The notes under the pieces were generated by a model, which searched no databases, was not told where the DNA came from, and worked only from the letters and a program-made list of their open reading frames with translations. The position numbers and the translations under genes are program-made. Below, piece after piece: positions 7,746 through 62,672 of a stretch of DNA of 64,000 bases. Positions within the stretch are counted from its first letter, which is position 1; every line of letters begins with the position of its first letter. Location: the IMG/VR virus record IMGVR_UViG_3300012009_000091, positions 62,001-126,000 of that record; one strand, written 5' to 3'. This DNA is from a virus.

Positions 7746-8435
7746 CTAAGCGGCTTGGGAGGCGAGGATGAGGCCGTCGATAGGTGAGAGGCGGTGGGGG
7801 ATATGGAATTGACATTTCACAAGGGGATAGCTGGGTTCAAAGGCTTCTAGCAAGTACCGGAGGTGTCGGACAGCTAGGAGGACACGAGTCTTCTCTTTTT
7901 TGGTCGATAAGTATGGAAGTAACCGGTGTCCGAGCTTCATCAACCAAATAGGTAATTCTCGAAGTTCGGGATTCTTAAGACAATATTGGACGACCCCTGC
8001 ATTGAAATGTTCCATCGCCAGAATCCAGCGCGCTTTTTCCTCATCGTTGATCGAATCTGGAGTCAGGTTCCTTCGAATCGCTTCTTCCATCAATGATAGA
8101 AGGCGCGTCTTGCTGATTCCATGGCCTCGCAAACTGATCCCCGAGATATGTTCGAGCACCTCTAGTCTTTCGTGAATACTGGATAGCTCGCGCAGATAAG
8201 TCGAATCGAACCCGCGATAGATTGCTTCTGCTTCTTCTTCGCGAGGATCAACTGGTCCAGACGTCGTTCCCATGAGGCGTTCTACATCTAGTCGATCGAT
8301 GAGAACTCGATTCTTTTGTTTCTTTGTTCGTAGGTGTTTTCTGCGGATGTGATAATCGATAGCGCGCACTCCCAAATCGAGTAGATCTGCGGCTTCTTGT
8401 CTAGTAACGAATCTATGTCTCTGGCTAGTTGACAT
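7746..8435 (-). CDS. Helix-turn-helix DNA-binding protein (excisionase-like N-terminus)
   Basis: A 229-residue protein. Residues 5-55 match the excisionase/MerR-type wing-helix pattern: FVTRQEAADLLDLGVRAIDY, then a basic stretch with an RVLIDRLDVERLM wing. The rest is helical and of unknown role. I use the ATG at 8435 (MSTSQRHRF), with GGAG about nine bases upstream; the frame stays open to 8489. It is divergent from the capsid operon and could be its regulator or a terminase small-subunit analogue, which is also an HTH protein next to terL. That is inference. Confidence 0.55.
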   Translation of the reverse strand: MSTSQRHRFVTRQEAADLLDLGVRAIDYHIRRKHLRTKKQKNRVLIDRLDVERLMGTTSGPVDPREEEAEAIYRGFDSTYLRELSSIHERLEVLEHISGISLRGHGISKTRLLSLMEEAIRRNLTPDSINDEEKARWILAMEHFNAGVVQYCLKNPELRELPIWLMKLGHRLLPYLSTKKEKTRVLLAVRHLRYLLEAFEPSYPLVKCQFHIPHRLSPIDGLILASQAA

Positions 8436-8458
8436 GTTGTGTGCTCCTACCCTACGAT
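8429..8458 (+). promoter_or_regulatory. Possible sigma-70-like promoter for the capsid operon
   Basis: TTGACA (8429-8434) and TACGAT (8453-8458) are 18 bases apart in the divergent gap before the capsid operon. No GTATAAG occurs here. The -10 is imperfect and part of the element lies in the start of the leftward HTH gene. Confidence 0.3.
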
Positions 8459-8477
8459 TGCAGAGGAAAACGTCTTT

Positions 8478-9578
8478 GTGGAACCCCAAGAGGCTTCCTT
8501 GAGTGTAACAATTGACAAAGCATTAATCACCAGCCTTGTAGACAAAGCTGCGGATTTGTTCATTGGAGACTGTTCTCCTGACCTGAGTACGGCTGTTGCG
8601 GATGCTATTGGGGATGTGCCATTCAATGAGGACCAGGTGGCGCGAATTGCACAAGCGACTAACCAGACAGTTTGGGCTCGATTGTCGTCCAGCAGAAAAC
8701 CGTGTACGGTAAGGTTTGAGCCCGCAATCGTCGAGGTTATCATGGAAAAGACAAAGGGAGCGCCGGAGAAAACAAAAACGGCGAATCGGGACATGCGCTG
8801 GGCTACAGGTCCTCAAAATCATTTTGAGGACCTGGTAGGTGCAGTTCTTGAGAAGACGGCAGCCAAAAGTAAGAAGCCGTCGGTTAAAAAACAAACCAAG
8901 ATGCGTTCGATCACCCCCAACTATTGGCGGGCACGAAATCTTCGTCGGAAGGGCTCCCAAGCTCCGGGAGCTCCGCCTACAAAAACACCGGAGATCAAAC
9001 GCGCTGCTCAGCTTCTTCCAGATACCCAATCGAGTTGGGGTCGTATTATCGAACAGTTGAAGACTGCGCAAGATGAGCTTGAGCTGCGTTTGCACAAACA
9101 CGAACAAAATTTCGAGGAAGAGCTGTCGGCGTTGAGTAAGACCGCGTCAGATCTTTTGTACGATGGTATCTCCCAGGAGACCGTCGAGAAGGCAGTGCTC
9201 GCTTCAGCAGACGAGCAAACAGGGCCTGCTTTAGTTGCTTGGCTCCAGAAACACGCCTTTCCCAAACATCCTGTGTTCCGAGATGAGTTTTCCTTCTTCG
9301 ATAAAAAGGCTCAACAAGTCTACGGCAACGTTACGGTATGGGATCCGATTTCTCTAGAGAAGACTGCCGAAGCCGACGATGTCGAAGAGTTCGATTCTAC
9401 TGCGCTCAATCCGGATCACCCTCTTGTCAAAGCGGCGGAAAGTTTGTGTGGCTTTCGGGTTGAGGGCCAACGAGCATCTGTCGCCATCGAAAAAATCCAA
9501 CAGCGGATTAAAGAGGCGTCTGATCTGAAACAAGCGGGAATTGAGGTGCCATTTCATGCCAGCGTTGGACACAGCTAA
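8478..9578 (+). CDS. Capsid-operon protein with repeated K-T-A motifs
   Basis: A 366-residue, helix-rich charged protein, first gene of the capsid operon. It contains several copies of the K-T-A motif seen across this virion module (VLEKTAAKSKK, LSKTASDLL, LEKTAEADD). The start is uncertain: GTG at 8478 has AGAGGA about ten bases upstream; the frame runs back to a GTG at 8439 with no ribosome site. It overlaps the next gene by 23 bases. Scaffold or internal head protein is a reasonable guess from position before the protease. Confidence 0.45.
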   Translation: MEPQEASLSVTIDKALITSLVDKAADLFIGDCSPDLSTAVADAIGDVPFNEDQVARIAQATNQTVWARLSSSRKPCTVRFEPAIVEVIMEKTKGAPEKTKTANRDMRWATGPQNHFEDLVGAVLEKTAAKSKKPSVKKQTKMRSITPNYWRARNLRRKGSQAPGAPPTKTPEIKRAAQLLPDTQSSWGRIIEQLKTAQDELELRLHKHEQNFEEELSALSKTASDLLYDGISQETVEKAVLASADEQTGPALVAWLQKHAFPKHPVFRDEFSFFDKKAQQVYGNVTVWDPISLEKTAEADDVEEFDSTALNPDHPLVKAAESLCGFRVEGQRASVAIEKIQQRIKEASDLKQAGIEVPFHASVGHS

Positions 9579-10653
9579 ATCCCTTCTCGGGTTCGGCCGG
9601 GGTACGGTTGATGATACGTTCACAGGTGCCGCTGGGTTAGGTTCTCTAGCCATGTCTGGGTGGTCTCCGTTGAAAGCCTGGACACATCCTCTATACTACA
9701 GCGCAATGGGTCGCTCACCGACAGCGGCGTTGAAGGGGTACGGTACCACCAAACGGCGTCTGTTAGGGTTGCCTGAACCGCGGTCACAGTCCAATCGACA
9801 GCAGTTTCGGAAAACGGGGGAGGAGAGTTCCATGCAGAAGACAGCGCTGGGAAGATTAGTCAGAAAGGCCAAGAATTGGTTGGCACCAGAACTCGGCACT
9901 CTTGCGCGACAAGCAGCTGATCCCGGCCGTCGTACTCTCCGTCCGTCTCTTCGAGCTCCTCTTGCTGTAGCTGGCCTTTCCGCTGCTGCGTATGGAGGCG
10001 CGCAAGGATTAGGATACTTGGGCGATCAAGCTAGTGTAATCGGGCGAGCGCGTGGGTATCGTCAGTTGATGAAAAAGTATGGACCGGAGCTTCACGCGAT
10101 TGCTGAGCAGACACATGTGCCTGTACCTGAAGAGCGGATGCGTGATGTTTATAACGCTCTCTACAAGATGTCTCCAGATGTTGCGAAAGAGCCGACTCTC
10201 GCTGCAGCTCAAATGGCGCCGCTTATTCGTGAAGCTGGTTCTCCGAGTGGGACTATGGAGGGGGCGGAGGGGCCTGTTCCTCGTGTTATGTTGGAGGGGG
10301 GATTGGAACAAATGGCTGTTCCATCTCGTATCCAGTCTGGGATGCCAGACTCGTTTGCGGACCGTACTCAACCATGGGTACGCAGTGCAGTCGGCGCTTT
10401 TGGGGACTACGACTTAAACACGGCGGCCCAACGTGAGATGATGAGAGCTGAGTTTCAGCAACCTGATTTGAAAGCCAAAAGTGACTTGGCGGCTGATCTG
10501 AGTTCGTTGGGTCGTCGACGTATGGAATTGCAAGCTCTCTATCGACAGAAGGCGGATGCTCTGAGAGCTGGAAACCAGACGGCTATTCAAGCTCTTGAAT
10601 CGCGGATTCGCCAACTTCGCACAGGTAGACCAGAGGCAGCGTCGAGGATTTGA
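9556..10653 (+). CDS. Virion-module protein with glycine/alanine-rich hydrophobic segment
   Basis: A 365-residue protein. The ATG at 9556 has GAGGTG seven bases upstream. The N-terminal 100 residues are Gly/Ser-rich and end at SSMQKTALGRLVRKAKNW, which fits the recurring K-T-A motif. A hydrophobic small-residue segment follows (LAVAGLSAAAYGGAQGLGYLG), then a helical region with a Gln-rich coiled coil at the end. The layout resembles internal virion proteins that can insert into membranes on injection. Its stop (TGATG) overlaps the protease start. Confidence 0.45.
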   Translation: MPALDTAKSLLGFGRGTVDDTFTGAAGLGSLAMSGWSPLKAWTHPLYYSAMGRSPTAALKGYGTTKRRLLGLPEPRSQSNRQQFRKTGEESSMQKTALGRLVRKAKNWLAPELGTLARQAADPGRRTLRPSLRAPLAVAGLSAAAYGGAQGLGYLGDQASVIGRARGYRQLMKKYGPELHAIAEQTHVPVPEERMRDVYNALYKMSPDVAKEPTLAAAQMAPLIREAGSPSGTMEGAEGPVPRVMLEGGLEQMAVPSRIQSGMPDSFADRTQPWVRSAVGAFGDYDLNTAAQREMMRAEFQQPDLKAKSDLAADLSSLGRRRMELQALYRQKADALRAGNQTAIQALESRIRQLRTGRPEAASRI

Positions 10654-13340
10654 TGGAGAAGTTCATCAAAATAGGCGCCAGCTCAGGGGGCCATTGGGAC
10701 TCATTTTACCACATCATGCGCGGAGATCGTGCGGACATGGTGAAATGGGCGGCTGCTGGAAGTTATCATCCACGTATCGAAAGATACCTTGCGACAGAGC
10801 CTTTTACTCGTCGTGACCTCGTGCTCGTCGTGGTTCCTTTAGGAGCTCATGAGGCTTGGGGCTGTAATGTCAATGGAGATGCATTCCAGCAAGAGCAGAT
10901 TGAGCCGGCTCATCGAGATTGGGGTCACGAGAGTTTCGTCCATCACGCCAATGCGTTTGTTCATCATCAGAACAAAGATCCACAGAAAGGATTCGGAAAA
11001 GTACCTATTGCGGTATTTGAACCCGTGATGCGGAGAATCGAAGCCGTCTTCAAGCTTGACCGAGACAAGGCGGATCGTGTCGGGGCTGGCACCTATGTCC
11101 GAAAGCTCGATGAGGGGGGGTCAGCTGATCTCAGCATGGGGTGTTTTCCGGCTGGCACGCTCGTTACTATGGCGGACGGTACTCAGAAACCAATCGAGAC
11201 GGTAGTGGTGGGGGATCTGGTTCTGACGAGTACAGGTCGAGCGCAGCGTGTAACGTCATTACACCCTCGTGAGTACGAGGGGCCACTACTGCGCATCAAA
11301 GTTTTTGGGCAGATAGAAGTGCGAGTTACTCCCGAACACCCGTTTTGGGCCACCCCCCGATCTTCGGTGATCAAAAATCGACGTTGGGTAGGAAAGGAGG
11401 ACGGCGCTCAGTGGGTACACGCAAAGTGTTTGCAGGAAGGGGATTATCTCACCACTCCCGTACTCCAAGAGGTTCTGACTCCGTCATATGCGTCACCTGC
11501 GCTGGCGCGACTGCTAGGATACTACCTCGCTGAGGGTCACGTACTCTATAATAAAAAAGGTGAGTACGTCGGCATCGAGCTGGCTGTAAATCGGATGGAC
11601 GCAGTGCTGGACGAGATCGAAAGCCTGTGTCGTGATTTCGGGTCCAGAAACGCGCCAGCTATCCGTCCACGCACAAATTCCAAACACGCGTTGGCAATTC
11701 AGATATTCGACCCACACTTGGCGGAGCTTTGTTTCAACCACTGTGGGAGTTACGCACGCCACAAGCGACTATCCGAAGATGTCATGTGGTGGGATCCAGA
11801 GTTGCAGCGACAATTGATTGGGGCCTACATTAATGGGGACGGGGGACAGTTGGAATCATGGCAACCTGGGGCTGTGGTCCTCTCCACGTTATCTGATCAT
11901 CTCGCCGCGCAGATCCCGCAGCTTCTCTTTCGTTGTGGCGTCAAATCCAACACTCAGTTGTTACGACATGAATCCGGAGGTGGATTCAATAGCAGTGCCA
12001 CCTTTGAACACCAGATCTACATCGGGAAACATCAAGTTCCGTCGTTGTTGGATGTAGCGCGTCTCAAAATGCCAGAACTGAGTCGTGATACGAACCCTGG
12101 GGCAAAGTTGGAAGGCGGCCTTGTCTTCTCGAAACTCCGAGAGATTTCCACGGAGTTTTTTCAAGGTACGGTATTCAACTTCGAGGTGGAAGAAGACGAG
12201 TCGTATGTGGTGGAGGGCCTAGCTGTACACAATTGCAAGGTGCCCTATGACATTTGTTCCATTTGCGGCCAGGAGTCTAAGTCTGTCGCGAATTATTGTA
12301 CCTGTCTCAAAGATGAGATGTTGAAGATCGAACCGGATGGTCGGATTCACTGTGCCTATAATCCTCGTCCTCGATTCTTCGATCTCAGCATTGTTATTGT
12401 TCGGGCAGCTAAAGAAGCTGCCATCCTAGAAAAGGCCGCGGCAGCGGGTATGGTCATGGATCAGAAAGACCCAGTAGATTGGACGACATCTTCCTTTTCA
12501 TTGGATGATGATTCTGGTCTTTATTTGACTAAAGCCGCCAGCGCGAAGGAAGCTGACACCAAACTAGCGGAAATCGAGAAGAAGCTCCCTGAAGTCTTCC
12601 ATGAGATGGTCTGGCCGATGATACGTTCTGAGGAGGCTCTCCCTGAGAGTCTTATGGATCGGTTGTCGGATCATACTCTCCCTAAAAGTCTGGCCTCTAC
12701 TTCTGCTTGTGGGATTGTCCTTCGCCCGCGTGAGTTCCAGCGTTTGTATCTTAGGCGAACAGGGCGCCCAGAAATGGCTGAGGAATTACACAAAAAGCGG
12801 TGTATTTTTTCTCCGCGTGATAGTCGCCATGCTTATCGTCTCCAATCGGATGACATAGAAGAGAAGATTCTCCCCTTGTTACACGATCTCCTCCCGAAGA
12901 GGAGCGTGTTCCAGCCGTTTGTGAGTAAGCGCATTATCATTGTTCGTCTTCGCGGGGAGAGGCCGACTGAACCAGAACTTGTAGAAAAAACCAGTGAGGC
13001 CCTTGACGAAGTCGGAGAAGAGTACGCAAAATATATCAACGGTCTGGCTCGCTTGCCATCTCTGCTTAAATCTGCGATGGTACGACATGGAGATCTTTAT
13101 GATGCATTTGCGGCAGAATCATATGACCCGATGCGAAAGGTCGCCGGATCTCTTGCATCTATCGTTGGGGCTGGTGTTGGTGTCGTATTGCCGGTATACT
13201 TGATGGCGTCAAAGTGGCGTGCAGATGCGACTCGTGGATATGATCCGGGACTACTTAAGGGAATTGTGGCTGATTACCCCGCCACAACATCCATTGGGGT
13301 GTTGACAGGCCTGCGTTATTTGGGCAAAAGAGGGAAGTGA
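10653..13340 (+). CDS. Prohead maturation protease interrupted by an in-frame intein
   Basis: An 895-residue precursor; removal of the 364-residue intein leaves a 531-residue protein. The exteins match the phage head-maturation protease pattern I know as VNGDAF, then a His-rich stretch (FVHHANAFVHHQNKDP), a GKV strand, an ADLSMG motif whose serine is the probable nucleophile, and a zinc-like CKVPYDICSICG plus YCTCL block, then FFDLSIV. The C-terminal half is helical and likely extra. Start is ATG 10653 (TGATG overlap, GAGGA upstream). It precedes scaffold-like and MCP genes, the expected protease position, and would process scaffold and capsid proteins before packaging. Confidence 0.72.
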   Translation: MEKFIKIGASSGGHWDSFYHIMRGDRADMVKWAAAGSYHPRIERYLATEPFTRRDLVLVVVPLGAHEAWGCNVNGDAFQQEQIEPAHRDWGHESFVHHANAFVHHQNKDPQKGFGKVPIAVFEPVMRRIEAVFKLDRDKADRVGAGTYVRKLDEGGSADLSMGCFPAGTLVTMADGTQKPIETVVVGDLVLTSTGRAQRVTSLHPREYEGPLLRIKVFGQIEVRVTPEHPFWATPRSSVIKNRRWVGKEDGAQWVHAKCLQEGDYLTTPVLQEVLTPSYASPALARLLGYYLAEGHVLYNKKGEYVGIELAVNRMDAVLDEIESLCRDFGSRNAPAIRPRTNSKHALAIQIFDPHLAELCFNHCGSYARHKRLSEDVMWWDPELQRQLIGAYINGDGGQLESWQPGAVVLSTLSDHLAAQIPQLLFRCGVKSNTQLLRHESGGGFNSSATFEHQIYIGKHQVPSLLDVARLKMPELSRDTNPGAKLEGGLVFSKLREISTEFFQGTVFNFEVEEDESYVVEGLAVHNCKVPYDICSICGQESKSVANYCTCLKDEMLKIEPDGRIHCAYNPRPRFFDLSIVIVRAAKEAAILEKAAAAGMVMDQKDPVDWTTSSFSLDDDSGLYLTKAASAKEADTKLAEIEKKLPEVFHEMVWPMIRSEEALPESLMDRLSDHTLPKSLASTSACGIVLRPREFQRLYLRRTGRPEMAEELHKKRCIFSPRDSRHAYRLQSDDIEEKILPLLHDLLPKRSVFQPFVSKRIIIVRLRGERPTEPELVEKTSEALDEVGEEYAKYINGLARLPSLLKSAMVRHGDLYDAFAAESYDPMRKVAGSLASIVGAGVGVVLPVYLMASKWRADATRGYDPGLLKGIVADYPATTSIGVLTGLRYLGKRGK
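11142..12233 (+). mobile_element. Intein with LAGLIDADG (DOD) homing endonuclease
   Basis: Codons 164-527 of the protease gene. Block A is CFPAGTLVTMADGTQ starting with Cys1; block B is VRVTPEHPFW with the TxxH motif; two DOD motifs are LLGYYLAEGH and LIGAYINGDGG; block F/G is FNFEVEEDESYVVEGLAVHN, ending in His-Asn with Cys as the +1 extein residue. All splicing residues are present, so it should excise itself and join ADLSMG to CKVPYD. The endonuclease motifs keep their acidic residues (E and D), so homing may still work. It is inserted right after the conserved protease SMG motif. Confidence 0.93.
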
Positions 13341-28276: not shown

Positions 28277-28283
28277 CTTATAC
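28277..28283 (-). promoter_or_regulatory. GTATAAG promoter-like motif
   Basis: Leftward GTATAAG, 32 bases before the 58-residue gene. It overlaps the stop codon of the upstream gene (28278-28280). Confidence 0.5.
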
Positions 28284-28760
28284 GACTTGCTGGATGTATT
28301 CGATGGGCGGCTCATGGTAAATGTTCCAGTGGTATAACAGCCGTTGTTTGTCTGCCATCCGTGGATTTTTCAACCGACCAGGATACCGACCGTCTCGTAC
28401 CCAAGCTTCCATCAATTCACGGGCAACTAGGATAACACCTGGTTCGTTCTCCAGCTCTTCTTCTGCCTCTTGGACAGCCTGGACGATTGTCGGGGTCAAT
28501 ACGTATTGAACTCGATGGATGGAGAACATCTTTGTGTTGTCCACTTCAGATTTCTTGCCGAGGGATAGCGCAATGCGGCGCTCTCGAGATACTCCAGGAA
28601 CAGTGATCCATTGTCCTGTTGCCAAGTCTTGTTTGTTGAAGCGGTATGAATGCTCCGAACTGAAGTTGGCAATCCAGAATCCCGCGCGTGTGCCGTTGTC
28701 TCGATTTTCCCTTACGCTCATATCTACCCAAATTTTGGGCATTTGATCTAGAGGTCTCAT
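28278..28760 (-). CDS. Leftward single-gene unit, function unknown
   Basis: A 160-residue protein (MRPLDQMPKIWVDMS). AAAGGAGA lies seven bases before ATG 28760 and a GTATAAG promoter 39 bases before it. The first 80 residues are beta-rich with conserved-looking Asn/Arg, the rest helical and acidic then basic. No motif recognised. Confidence 0.5.
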   Translation of the reverse strand: MRPLDQMPKIWVDMSVRENRDNGTRAGFWIANFSSEHSYRFNKQDLATGQWITVPGVSRERRIALSLGKKSEVDNTKMFSIHRVQYVLTPTIVQAVQEAEEELENEPGVILVARELMEAWVRDGRYPGRLKNPRMADKQRLLYHWNIYHEPPIEYIQQVV

Positions 28761-28798: not shown

Positions 28799-28805
28799 CT
28801 TATAC
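28799..28805 (-). promoter_or_regulatory. GTATAAG promoter-like motif
   Basis: Leftward GTATAAG, just past the terminator-like hairpin of the structured RNA at 28811-28941 and 39 bases before the gene starting at 28760. Confidence 0.55.
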
Positions 28806-28810
28806 TAAGA

Positions 28811-28941
28811 GGGAAGGGAAAATCCCTTCCCCCTACGGGAGGAAACTACCACGCTGCTGACGAGCTTGAGTCGCACAATATGCGTCTCAATATGCTCAAG
28901 CCAACAGCGTTCTAGTTTCCTCGATGCTTGTCCTTGCGTGC
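28811..28941 (-). ncRNA. Candidate structured small RNA 1 (long rod hairpin plus terminator)
   Basis: Between two leftward GTATAAG motifs and with no open frame. Stems seen on the plus-strand coordinates: 28839-28848 with 28913-28922 (10 perfect pairs), 28851-28856 with 28905-28910 (6), 28864-28870 with 28895-28901 (7), and 28872-28875 with 28881-28884 (4), giving one nested rod of about 84 bases with small internal loops. It ends in a 9-pair hairpin (28811-28819 with 28823-28831) that could stop transcription, though without a clear U-run. The promoter at 28948-28954 would start the RNA near 28941. Function unknown. Confidence 0.6.
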
Positions 28942-28947
28942 TACCTA

Positions 28948-28954
28948 CTTATAC
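28948..28954 (-). promoter_or_regulatory. GTATAAG promoter-like motif for small RNA 1
   Basis: Leftward GTATAAG followed by TAG, the same flank as the copy at 29139-29145. It has no protein gene within 180 bases downstream, which points to an RNA gene. Confidence 0.55.
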
Positions 28955-28976
28955 CATAGTAGCTAACACGTCGGGA

Positions 28977-29132
28977 GGGGGACTCCCCCCAGGGTCCGCT
29001 CGGACCATCCCGGTGGCCGCGGAAAGCTTTGCAGCTGAGCGAACCTTAGTCTAGGGTTTTGCCGTTCATAACGACCGCATCCCCGAGCCGCACCGGGTCG
29101 GTAATCGGTACTCACTCCTCCCGAGTGATTTC
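28977..29132 (-). ncRNA. Candidate structured small RNA 2 (three-way junction, GGA-bearing loops)
   Basis: A 155-base stretch without a coding frame, behind the GTATAAG at 29139. On the plus strand: TCACTC-type hairpin at 29112-29128 with loop GGGAG in the RNA; a hairpin of six pairs around 29061-29075; a 9-pair stem 28993-29001 with 29037-29045 enclosing two hairpins, one closed by an AGCT stem with a GCAA tetraloop (29025-29036) and one with loop CCGGGA (29003-29018); and a GC-rich end hairpin 28977-28989. Six GGA triplets occur, at least three in or at loops, which is what CsrA-binding decoy RNAs show. CsrA binding is inference. Confidence 0.58.
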
Positions 29133-29138
29133 ACCCTA

Positions 29139-29145
29139 CTTATAC
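29139..29145 (-). promoter_or_regulatory. GTATAAG promoter-like motif for small RNA 2
   Basis: Leftward GTATAAG, 16 bases beyond the stop of the gene 29161-29394 and directly before the folded region ending near 28977. Confidence 0.55.
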
Positions 29146-29160
29146 CACGGTGAGATGTGT

Positions 29161-29394
29161 TCAAAGTTTGTCAATTAGAATCCGTGTCAAGACCCACCCG
29201 CGCCAGCTGGCATCGTGGGATGTCTCGATGTTCTCATCCCACCCTATATTGATCTCTTCATGGCATCGAGGGCAGGTAATCACCGTTGAATGTCCTGGTT
29301 CTTTCCCAAATCCCCAATGGTCGTGGAAGGATTGCATGCACGAAGGACATGTGAACTCGTCTGTCGGATAGGAGATTGTCACATGTTTATGCAT
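29161..29394 (-). CDS. Small zinc-ribbon protein
   Basis: A 77-residue protein with CPSC (about residue 16) and CPRC (about residue 41), a four-Cys zinc ribbon, and a tryptophan-rich C-terminus. ATG 29394 overlaps the preceding stop, so it is coupled to the RHH-like gene. Such ribbons bind nucleic acid or proteins; the role is unknown. Confidence 0.55.
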   Translation of the reverse strand: MHKHVTISYPTDEFTCPSCMQSFHDHWGFGKEPGHSTVITCPRCHEEINIGWDENIETSHDASWRGWVLTRILIDKL

Positions 29395-29725
29395 CAATCC
29401 CCGCGGAGAAGTCTTCGGCTTCTTCTTCGGTCTGTTGCATCTCTTGGATCACTTGTTCTTCATCTTTTTTCGCGGGCGGAGGTGGAGAATTTTTGACCAT
29501 CTCATAGAATACCATGAGCGCATTCCGAATGATGTGACTCTCGTTTCGTGCATTGGTGTTTGCTAACAGTTCACACAGAGCTTGATGTTCCATCTCGTTC
29601 AACGTAATTGTCATTGAGTAGGGATGTTGTCCTCGCTGCTTTTTCTTCTTCATCTCTTGTCGTCGACGTTTGAGTTTTCTCTTCGCGCCAGGTGGAGGGG
29701 CAGTGTGGGTGTTGTTCTCTGTCAT
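29387..29725 (-). CDS. Putative ribbon-helix-helix DNA-binding regulator
   Basis: A 112-residue protein. A basic N-terminus (KRKLKRRRQEMKKKKQRGQ) precedes YSMTITLNEMEHQALCELL and a second helix (SHIIRNALMVFYEMV), which match the strand-helix-helix pattern of MetJ/Arc repressors. The C-terminus is acidic. AAGGAGA precedes the start. It may autoregulate the leftward block or bind operators such as the TTTACACA sites. Confidence 0.5.
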   Translation of the reverse strand: MTENNTHTAPPPGAKRKLKRRRQEMKKKKQRGQHPYSMTITLNEMEHQALCELLANTNARNESHIIRNALMVFYEMVKNSPPPPAKKDEEQVIQEMQQTEEEAEDFSAGIDA

Positions 29726-38168: not shown

Positions 38169-39107
38169 ATGAAGACGATTACAGTAGCCGTTCATGATGG
38201 TGTGTTTCACGCCGACGATGTCTTTTCGGCGTCGGTAGTGGAAATGATGAGCCTGAACCAAGTGGCCATTTTCCGGACACGAATTCCGGAGGAGATTGAA
38301 GCGGTTGATATCGCTATTGATGTCGGAGGGGTGTACGACCCCCTCCGAGGGCGCTTCGACCACCATTTTGTCGGGAGTCCTACCCGACAAAACGGCCTTC
38401 CTTATGCAGCCTTCGGGCTCGTATGGAAGGCATTCGGGGCTGATGTTGTGGCTCAACTGTCCGATGAGTTCGGGGACCTGAATCAGGACGAGCTCGACGA
38501 CACGATCGACCGTGTCGATCAGTTGCTGGTACAGGCCGTGGACGCGGCGGACAACGGCGTCCCGCTCGTTAAGGAGCGGGCTTGGCCAGACGCGCGTCTG
38601 GCTACGGTCAGCTCTATTATCTCGGGGTTCAACCCGGGATGGATGGGGGAGGGAGAGGAGCACGATGTGTGCTTCGAGGAGGCCACAGAGGTGGCCAAGA
38701 TCATTCTCTGGAATACAGTGCGTAGCGCTGTGCAGTGGGTGAAGGCCCGGAGTATTGTTGAGACCTCTCTTCAGGCGGCAGAAGAGGGGGTCATGGTGCT
38801 CACCCGTCCCGTTCCTTGGCAAGAGCACCTCTTCGCTAGCTTGCAAGAGCAGGCGGAGACCGTGCTCTATGTTGTTTTTCCGGGATCTGGCTCCCCGGCC
38901 TGGATGGTACAGTGCGTACCCCCGATGCCGGGGAGTTTCGACAAGCGAAAAGCCCTACCCGAGTCTTGGGCGGGGCTCCGCGATGCGGATATCCAGGAAG
39001 AGACTGCTGCTAGCACCGCAGTATTCTGCCATCCGGGCAGATTCATCTGCGGTGCTGAAGATTTCGAGGATGCAATGAAGATGGCTAAGCTGGCTGTACG
39101 TAGCTAG
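38169..39107 (+). CDS. MYG1-family (UPF0160) DHH-like metal-dependent exonuclease
   Basis: A 312-residue protein. The N-terminal signature VAVHDGVFHADDVFSASVV and DVGGVYDPLRGRFDHHFVG are the metal-binding motifs of the MYG1 family, whose members are 3-prime-5-prime exonucleases. The C-terminus keeps VQCVPP-like and PESWAGLRDADIQEETA blocks of the same family. Start ATG 38169 behind AGAGGAGAA. It sits alone between hairpins with its own promoter. It may degrade RNA or recycle nucleotides. Confidence 0.78.
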   Translation: MKTITVAVHDGVFHADDVFSASVVEMMSLNQVAIFRTRIPEEIEAVDIAIDVGGVYDPLRGRFDHHFVGSPTRQNGLPYAAFGLVWKAFGADVVAQLSDEFGDLNQDELDDTIDRVDQLLVQAVDAADNGVPLVKERAWPDARLATVSSIISGFNPGWMGEGEEHDVCFEEATEVAKIILWNTVRSAVQWVKARSIVETSLQAAEEGVMVLTRPVPWQEHLFASLQEQAETVLYVVFPGSGSPAWMVQCVPPMPGSFDKRKALPESWAGLRDADIQEETAASTAVFCHPGRFICGAEDFEDAMKMAKLAVRS

Positions 39108-39125
39108 CTGTCTTCATTGCATCCG

Positions 39126-39149
39126 ATACACCCGTTTTCTCGGGTGTAT
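39126..39149 (+). terminator. Terminator-like hairpin after MYG1-type gene
   Basis: ATACACCCG (39126-39134) pairs perfectly with CGGGTGTAT (39141-39149), loop TTTTCT. A GTATAAG motif follows 18 bases later. Confidence 0.65.
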
Positions 39150-39166
39150 ATTAGCCTATGTCCAAC

Positions 39167-39173
39167 GTATAAG
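39167..39173 (+). promoter_or_regulatory. GTATAAG promoter-like motif
   Basis: Rightward GTATAAG about 100 bases before ATG 39270. The leader folds: GTCG-TTAG-CGAC hairpin (39189-39200) and an outer GACCAC/GTGGT pairing (about 39175-39231). Confidence 0.58.
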
Positions 39174-47191: not shown

Positions 47192-47219
47192 GAAGACGGG
47201 AGGCCGCGCTCTCGTCTTC
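47192..47219 (+). terminator. Terminator-like hairpin
   Basis: GAAGACGGGAG (47192-47202) pairs with CTCTCGTCTTC (47209-47219) with one G-U pair, loop GCCGCG. A GTATAAG promoter follows four bases later. Confidence 0.65.
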
Positions 47220-47222
47220 TTA

Positions 47223-47229
47223 GTATAAG
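47223..47229 (+). promoter_or_regulatory. GTATAAG promoter-like motif
   Basis: Rightward GTATAAG 81 bases before the deoxynucleoside kinase, right after a terminator-like hairpin. A CCTC-GAGG hairpin lies in the leader at 47275-47285. Confidence 0.6.
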
Positions 47230-61865: not shown

Positions 61866-62672
61866 ATGAACATTCAAGAGGAGTACAACGAGGGAAGACG
61901 AGACTTCTCGTATATGCGTTTAGAAGGCGTAAATTTGAAAGGCGCAAATCTATTGGGTGCAGATTTCACGAATGCCGATTTCACGAATGCCGATTTCACA
62001 AATGCCGATTTCACGGGTGCCTACTTCAATGGTGCGTACTTAAAAGACGCGATTTTCACCCGCGCCATTCTCGATGATGCGGACTTCACGGCTGCGTACT
62101 TACACGGCGCAGTTCTCACGAAAACGAATTCCAAGAGCGCGAATTTCAACAGCGCGAACCTCGAGAATTCGACGATCAACGAAGCTAAGTTCAGACATTC
62201 TGAACTTGTGGGTACAGATCTTGAAAATGCGAATCTTGAGGGAACAGATTTCACGGGTGCCGACCTCACGTGGGCCAATCTCATAAAGGCGAATTTCACG
62301 GGTGCCATACTCGATGGCACCTGTATCGATCCGGCAGCACCATTACCGCCTCTCACCGATGAGGAGATTCTTGTTGCTGGCCTATACCCAGAAGGTGAGT
62401 GGGTGTATGGGTGGCGAACAGAGATGTCGGCTATGAAGTGCGAGAAATATGTGCCGAGAGAGGAGCCGTATGTGGCTCCCGTCTTCAGCGTGGATCAGAG
62501 AACTCCTTGTCACCCTGGAATCTATCTGGCTAGCCGCAAGTGGTTAATCGAGGCCCGCTGGGATCTTGTTGTTCGCTGTCGCTGCAGGCGTGATGAGCTG
62601 GTTCACGCCGGAGACAAATGGCGGGCAAAAAGACTCTGGATTGAGGAGGGGAGAAATGAATATTCAAGATGA
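61866..62672 (+). CDS. Pentapeptide-repeat protein 4 of 5
   Basis: A 268-residue paralogue with longer helix: a run of three NADFT-type repeats with near-identical codons (about 61970-62015), then varied pentapeptides. N-terminus MNIQEEYNEGRRDFSYM; the same C-terminal domain, starting with PPLTDEEILVAGLYPEGEW. GGAGGAGA precedes ATG 61866. Confidence 0.68.
   Translation: MNIQEEYNEGRRDFSYMRLEGVNLKGANLLGADFTNADFTNADFTNADFTGAYFNGAYLKDAIFTRAILDDADFTAAYLHGAVLTKTNSKSANFNSANLENSTINEAKFRHSELVGTDLENANLEGTDFTGADLTWANLIKANFTGAILDGTCIDPAAPLPPLTDEEILVAGLYPEGEWVYGWRTEMSAMKCEKYVPREEPYVAPVFSVDQRTPCHPGIYLASRKWLIEARWDLVVRCRCRRDELVHAGDKWRAKRLWIEEGRNEYSR

Follow-up and report, generated by a model that had tools for sequence, protein, structure and literature searches.

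A candidate two-member family of structured RNAs in two diverged phages and an adjacent putative hairpin RNA behind GTATAAG promoter-like motifs

Phages of the phi29 type encode a packaging RNA (pRNA) of about 170 nt that contains a three-way junction. Large ornate structured non-coding RNAs, such as GOLLD, ROOL and OLE, some of them phage-borne, are known mainly from comparative genomics (PMC12286853). The locus described here lies in a stretch of 64,000 nucleotides (the window), corresponding to positions 62001–126000 of a 167,069-base virus record, and carries two candidate RNAs, RNA A and RNA B.

Both candidates are located in a gap without protein genes of about 400 bases, between ORF 28278–28760 and ORF 29161–29397, both on the minus strand. 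Such a protein-free gap was claimed in the original prediction, and convincing ORFs are indeed absent; the longest frames inside it, a 62-codon TTG frame on the plus strand and a 50-codon GTG frame on the minus strand, have no counterpart in the related phage G001. A small coding ORF was rejected as an explanation of RNA A, since no frame is common to both phages. All features of RNA A and RNA B are on the minus strand, which the original prediction had left unspecified, and the entire 341-nt stretch folds with −160.2 kcal/mol (z = −6.6). RNA A has minus-strand accessory genes on either side and is 22 kb away from the terminase gene (the large terminase of this phage is of the phrog_675 type). 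The features of the locus are as follows.

29139–29145, minus strand: promoter-like GTATAAG of RNA A, exact match, extended GGTATAAGTAG at 29136–29146
28962–29132, minus strand: RNA A, about 170 nt, from comparison, with both ends inferred from where the promoter and the conserved 3′ GTTAGC lie
29061–29075, minus strand: P3 hairpin GUCGUU-AUG-AACGGC (GUCUC-AGGAA-GAGGC in G001)
29054–29063, minus strand: invariant GGCAAAACCC, comprising the 3′ side of P3 and single-stranded AAAACCC, identical in G001
28993–29045, minus strand: three-way junction of RNA A, formed by P5, P5a and P5b
29037–29045 with 28993–29001, minus strand: P5, the closing stem
29025–29036, minus strand: P5a with a GCAA loop (GUGA in G001)
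29002–29018, minus strand: P5b
28977–28990, minus strand: 3′ G/C hairpin GGGGG-GAGU-CCCCC, after CU, in both phages
28962–28967, minus strand: conserved 3′ GUUAGC, in both phages
28948–28954, minus strand: promoter-like GTATAAG of RNA B, exact match, extended GGTATAAGTAG at 28945–28955
28808–28942, minus strand: RNA B, about 135 nt, with a fold z-score of −8.8 relative to dinucleotide shuffles
28839–28922, minus strand: rod of RNA B, 84 nt, nested stems, from folding
28808–28834, minus strand: terminator-like 12-bp hairpin of RNA B, then TTAG, from folding
28799–28805, minus strand: third GTATAAG, putatively serving ORF 28278–28760, with 38 nt from the motif end to the ATG

The two GTATAAG sites that had been proposed as promoters on the same strand, each before strongly folded sequence, are thus both exact matches on the minus strand; the third, unmentioned in the original prediction, follows directly after the terminator hairpin of RNA B. 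The window contains 15 copies of the motif where 2.9 are expected, none of 100 shuffles reached 15, and most of the copies listed are located 20–140 nt upstream of an ORF bearing a ribosome binding site. From this placement and enrichment we infer that GTATAAG is a promoter. It looks like a single-element promoter, since no −35-like element was visible among 44 GTATAAG sites of this record and the relative. A phage sigma factor reading the motif was also considered and rejected, the sole sigma-like match being below the family cut-off and reading as a helix-turn-helix protein; a search for a single-subunit RNA polymerase was uninformative, its control being silent. The promoter-like motifs support separate transcription of the putative RNAs A and B. 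A recurring module was also observed, in which a terminator hairpin is followed nearly without gaps by TCTTAG or TTCTTAG and then GTATAAG, the terminator abutting the next promoter; it is found at 28799–28834 and 47200–47229 of the window and at about 9000 and 10170 of contig L101 of the relative. Behind terminator hairpins, TTAG is overrepresented in the relative and not clearly so in this phage.

The relative G001 (L009) is a 51,685-base contig whose major capsid protein is 76% identical to that of this phage. It is the only close relative found: a search with the major capsid protein returned 80 loci, of which one was close enough, the next relatives being at about 50% identity or lower, while a tail-tube protein search gave four loci and searches with the adjacent ORF and the tail sheath gave no relatives. 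These next relatives displayed no clear GTATAAG enrichment. The gene order flanking the gap is common to both phages on both sides, and the G001 copy of RNA A occupies the syntenic place, on the same relative strand and behind the same GTATAAGTA, with a spacing from GTATAAGTA to GGCAAAACC / GGCAAAACCC (read from the sequences) of 73 nt here and 71 nt in G001.

A covariance model built from the G001 RNA alone found RNA A as its best match in 720 kb, with 34.3 bits (E 5.4e-6), followed by a match of 12.1 bits, and the same 123 positions modelled without base pairs gave zero matches up to E 10. In the reverse direction, the model built from RNA A of the window alone had the G001 RNA as its best non-self match, with 17.5 bits, corresponding to an E of 0.97 over 770 kb and of 7.5e-4 within the syntenic 601 bases; this weaker result is partly due to the model having misplaced P5. 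The original prediction had named covariation with homologues as a check, and for RNA A compensatory changes are present. In the alignment of the two RNA A sequences, a single pairwise comparison fitted to the model, 98.5% of cells are paired, only one of the 68 testable cells breaks, and 11 base pairs are changed on both sides, a number that drops to between 0 and 2 when partners are slid by 1–3 columns. Eight of these pairs belong to the three-way junction, where none is broken, and two to P3, where three others are unchanged. These pair counts used the model-fitted alignment, as MAFFT misaligned both RNAs, and shuffles are a weak control with two sequences; the comparison of models with and without structure is the stronger argument. 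Across 5.2 million strand-bases, six distinct sites had the junction shape, RNA A and its G001 counterpart among them; this is supportive only, as the descriptor was written after both of these had been seen.

The minimum-energy fold of RNA A contains the three-way junction that had been predicted, with its 9-bp closing stem and GCAA tetraloop. The G-rich arm of the 3′ hairpin could pair with the CCC of AAAACCC instead of forming that hairpin; in the same fold it pairs with the upstream CCCUAG, and in the minimum-energy fold of G001 it uses the downstream hairpin. The two pairings are mutually exclusive. Both phages also allow a larger closing fold (P1, P2, P6, P4), which is not claimed because it lies 7 kcal/mol above the G001 minimum. 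The folding energy of RNA A is ordinary for its composition (z = −1.8, and −0.7 for the G001 copy), so the case for it is comparative. Such ordinary energies would suit a reading in which GC-rich intergenic DNA with terminator hairpins folds by chance and a functional RNA is absent; however, the compensatory changes, seen in a copy that is syntenic and follows the same promoter, strongly disfavour this for RNA A, and we regard it as highly improbable. The comparison shows RNA A to be a genuine conserved RNA, with a predicted core fold kept by compensatory change. In two diverged phages, the junction, the GNRA-capped arm and the AAAACCC segment were kept while much of the stem sequence was rewritten. 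Phage non-coding RNAs with a comparatively proven fold are few, and RNA A offers a defined, testable case.

Searches for further members gave chance matches only, as judged by shape and model checks. Viral contigs were scanned with GTATAAGTA-N55..85-GGCAAAACC and with GGCAAAACC-N-CCCTGGGGG, and 84,980 prokaryote genomes with a similar one. Weak model matches in L132/L104 (14.8 bits) and L144 (21.2 bits) were rejected as homologues; the one in L104 lies within an ORF.

RNA B is far more stable than expected by chance. It folds with −71.7 kcal/mol on the minus strand versus −61.7 kcal/mol on the other, and the outer 21-nt arms of its rod (28839–28859/28902–28922) are 86% complementary. The claimed 84-base rod is present, and the hairpin that ends it, at 28808–28834, measures 12 bp. 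The original prediction went somewhat too far in calling this the most structured piece of the window, as RNA B ranks second in a sliding scan of fold z-scores, outranked by 39001–39150. The top 150-base window of that scan starts at 39001 (z = −10.6), and the region 38990–39170 consists of the end of a MYG1-family ORF and a terminator hairpin with a GTATAAG promoter immediately after it. RNA B is single-copy in the record, its matches in phage records are only fragments of 26–28 bases, and it is absent from the syntenic place in G001. As no homologue was detected, its structure rests on folding energy. The chance reading set out above would take it for inverted repeats plus a terminator, against which stands its z-score; RNA B likely exists as an RNA.

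It could also be proposed that RNA A and RNA B are halves of one transcript of about 330 nt that cooperate with each other, the inner GTATAAG being a secondary start. A clear terminator is missing between them, and the 3′ end of RNA A and the start of RNA B can pair in a joint fold. On the other hand, G001 has RNA A without RNA B, and the inner GTATAAGTA of RNA B matches as well as the outer one of RNA A, which leads us to consider a single transcript unlikely.

The reading we prefer, to which we give an even chance, is that RNA A is a stand-alone, trans-acting structured RNA and RNA B a second, lineage-specific hairpin RNA. RNA A, with the probable ends listed above, would be made from its own GTATAAGTA promoter. 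Its predicted core would comprise the P3 hairpin, single-stranded AAAACCC, the three-way junction with its GNRA-capped arm, the G/C hairpin and the 3′ GUUAGC. It would act in trans as a folded RNA, and not as a messenger or antisense RNA, and might attach to a protein of the host or the phage through its shape and AAAACCC segment, a guess based on the absence of long conserved single strands. Since RNA A lies among accessory genes and has its own putative promoter, the partner may serve host takeover or counter-defence. RNA B would be transcribed from the next promoter and ended by its own terminator hairpin.

The main rival is that RNA A is a cis-acting 5′ leader, a switch or attenuator in which two partners compete for the G-rich segment, the CCC of AAAACCC upstream and CCCC downstream, with the outcome controlling what follows. 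Several features of G001 suit this: RNA A takes up the leader preceding a 106-codon ORF, with 219 nt from the motif end to the ATG, and the modelled core ends only about 35 nt before a start codon bearing a ribosome binding site. The predicted mutually exclusive pairings of the G-rich arm, upstream in the minimum-energy fold here and downstream in that of G001, also fit. However, RNA A is followed in this phage by RNA B, a terminator hairpin and a promoter, with no ORF directly after it, and its shape is kept regardless of this difference. The genes downstream in the two phages have no similarity at E up to 1e-5, so that, in the two cases available, the neighbours differ and the RNA is not always upstream of one gene family. 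A U-run terminator is missing after the hairpin of RNA A in both phages, and no riboswitch family in Rfam matches it. Cis control of ORF 28278–28760 is unlikely, since a terminator hairpin and the third promoter intervene; together with the differing downstream genes, they favour a free-standing trans RNA. We regard a leader role as the less likely reading.

Other candidate elements were observed in the phage and its relative. In another part of the record, L006:14088–13640 (minus strand) lies downstream of a GTATAAGTA, contains the repeat GGCGCACCAACCCCGCCTTTACAATGGGAGGCC twice and shares part of its length with a 76-codon GTG frame; Rfam gave no match there at the gathering threshold or up to E 1, two weak matches being located elsewhere. 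L006:11680–11570 (minus strand), with a T-arm-like GGGTTCGATTCCC and flanking GC-rich pairing, resembles the 3′ half of a tRNA, and ARAGORN predicts no tRNA in it. At L006:8035–7920 (minus strand), GTATAAGTA precedes about 110 ORF-free nt and a terminator-like hairpin, making a third candidate small RNA of this phage. In G001, L101:491–285 (minus strand) holds a GTATAAG, then about 190 nt, then the hairpin GGTGGGGAAGGGTCCCCACC with a U-run; a model search found no similarity between this candidate small RNA and RNA A. Within the window, 10650–13340 encodes an ORF of 896 aa with matches to intein-like Hint and LAGLIDADG domains.

Outside the window, G000:C1:133300–138700 of this record (L006 about 7800–13200, minus strand) contains about 5 kb of back-to-back near-perfect hairpins, coding and non-coding. 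ORF 137493–138656 in this region (minus strand; L006:11993–13156, 387 aa) is the most structured of 197 ORFs tested, its folding energy exceeding that of synonymous shuffles by 51% (z about −13). It has a P-loop-like start and C-terminal Cas_csx3 domains (PF09620, E 2.6e-25, two matched stretches), and no relatives were found in the phage records searched or, by peptide pattern, in viral contigs. Csx3 has been described as a cA4-specific ring nuclease of type III CRISPR (PMC7371418), and type III activation has been reported to depend on target RNA structure (PMC8682760). One could hypothesise that GTATAAG transcripts, coding and non-coding, are densely folded to blunt RNA-directed defence, e.g., type III CRISPR, with RNA B serving as a decoy or representing an extreme example. 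This is favoured by the Csx3 domains of the most hyper-structured ORF, by the survival of the excess under synonymous-codon shuffling, and by the transcribed strand being the more structured in most of the hottest windows of the 133–139 kb stretch. Against it, the ORF next to the two RNAs shows no such excess of structure (z = −0.9) and there is no direct link to either RNA; we consider the hypothesis quite doubtful. Two more ORFs with a 26–28% excess of structure over synonymous shuffles were seen at L007:16280–17302 (minus strand; G000:161280–162302), downstream of a GTATAAG at 162376.

The original prediction claimed that the locus fits no known family, and neither RNA reaches any Rfam family. 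With 4227 Rfam families, no match at the gathering threshold was found in the window or in 125 kb taken from elsewhere in the record and from the relative; at E up to 10 there were none around RNA A and only far-below-threshold matches around RNA B. ARAGORN detected no tRNA or tmRNA in the window or the other scanned parts of the record. The pRNA of phi29-like phages is like RNA A in being phage-encoded, in size (about 170 nt) and in its three-way junction, but RNA A has no Rfam match to it even at E up to 10 and sits amid accessory genes, far from the terminase gene; none of the tests supports a pRNA role. Like GOLLD, ROOL and OLE, both RNA A and RNA B are structured and non-coding, but they are much smaller and have no Rfam match, and there is no tRNA gene in the parts of the record scanned. 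The candidate structured RNAs obtained by comparative genomics (e.g., PMC2864571) rest on the same type of evidence as RNA A, namely a fold with covariation and an unassigned function. With two members so far and a place outside the Rfam families searched, RNA A is best described, on the sequence comparison, as a candidate new RNA family of two members.
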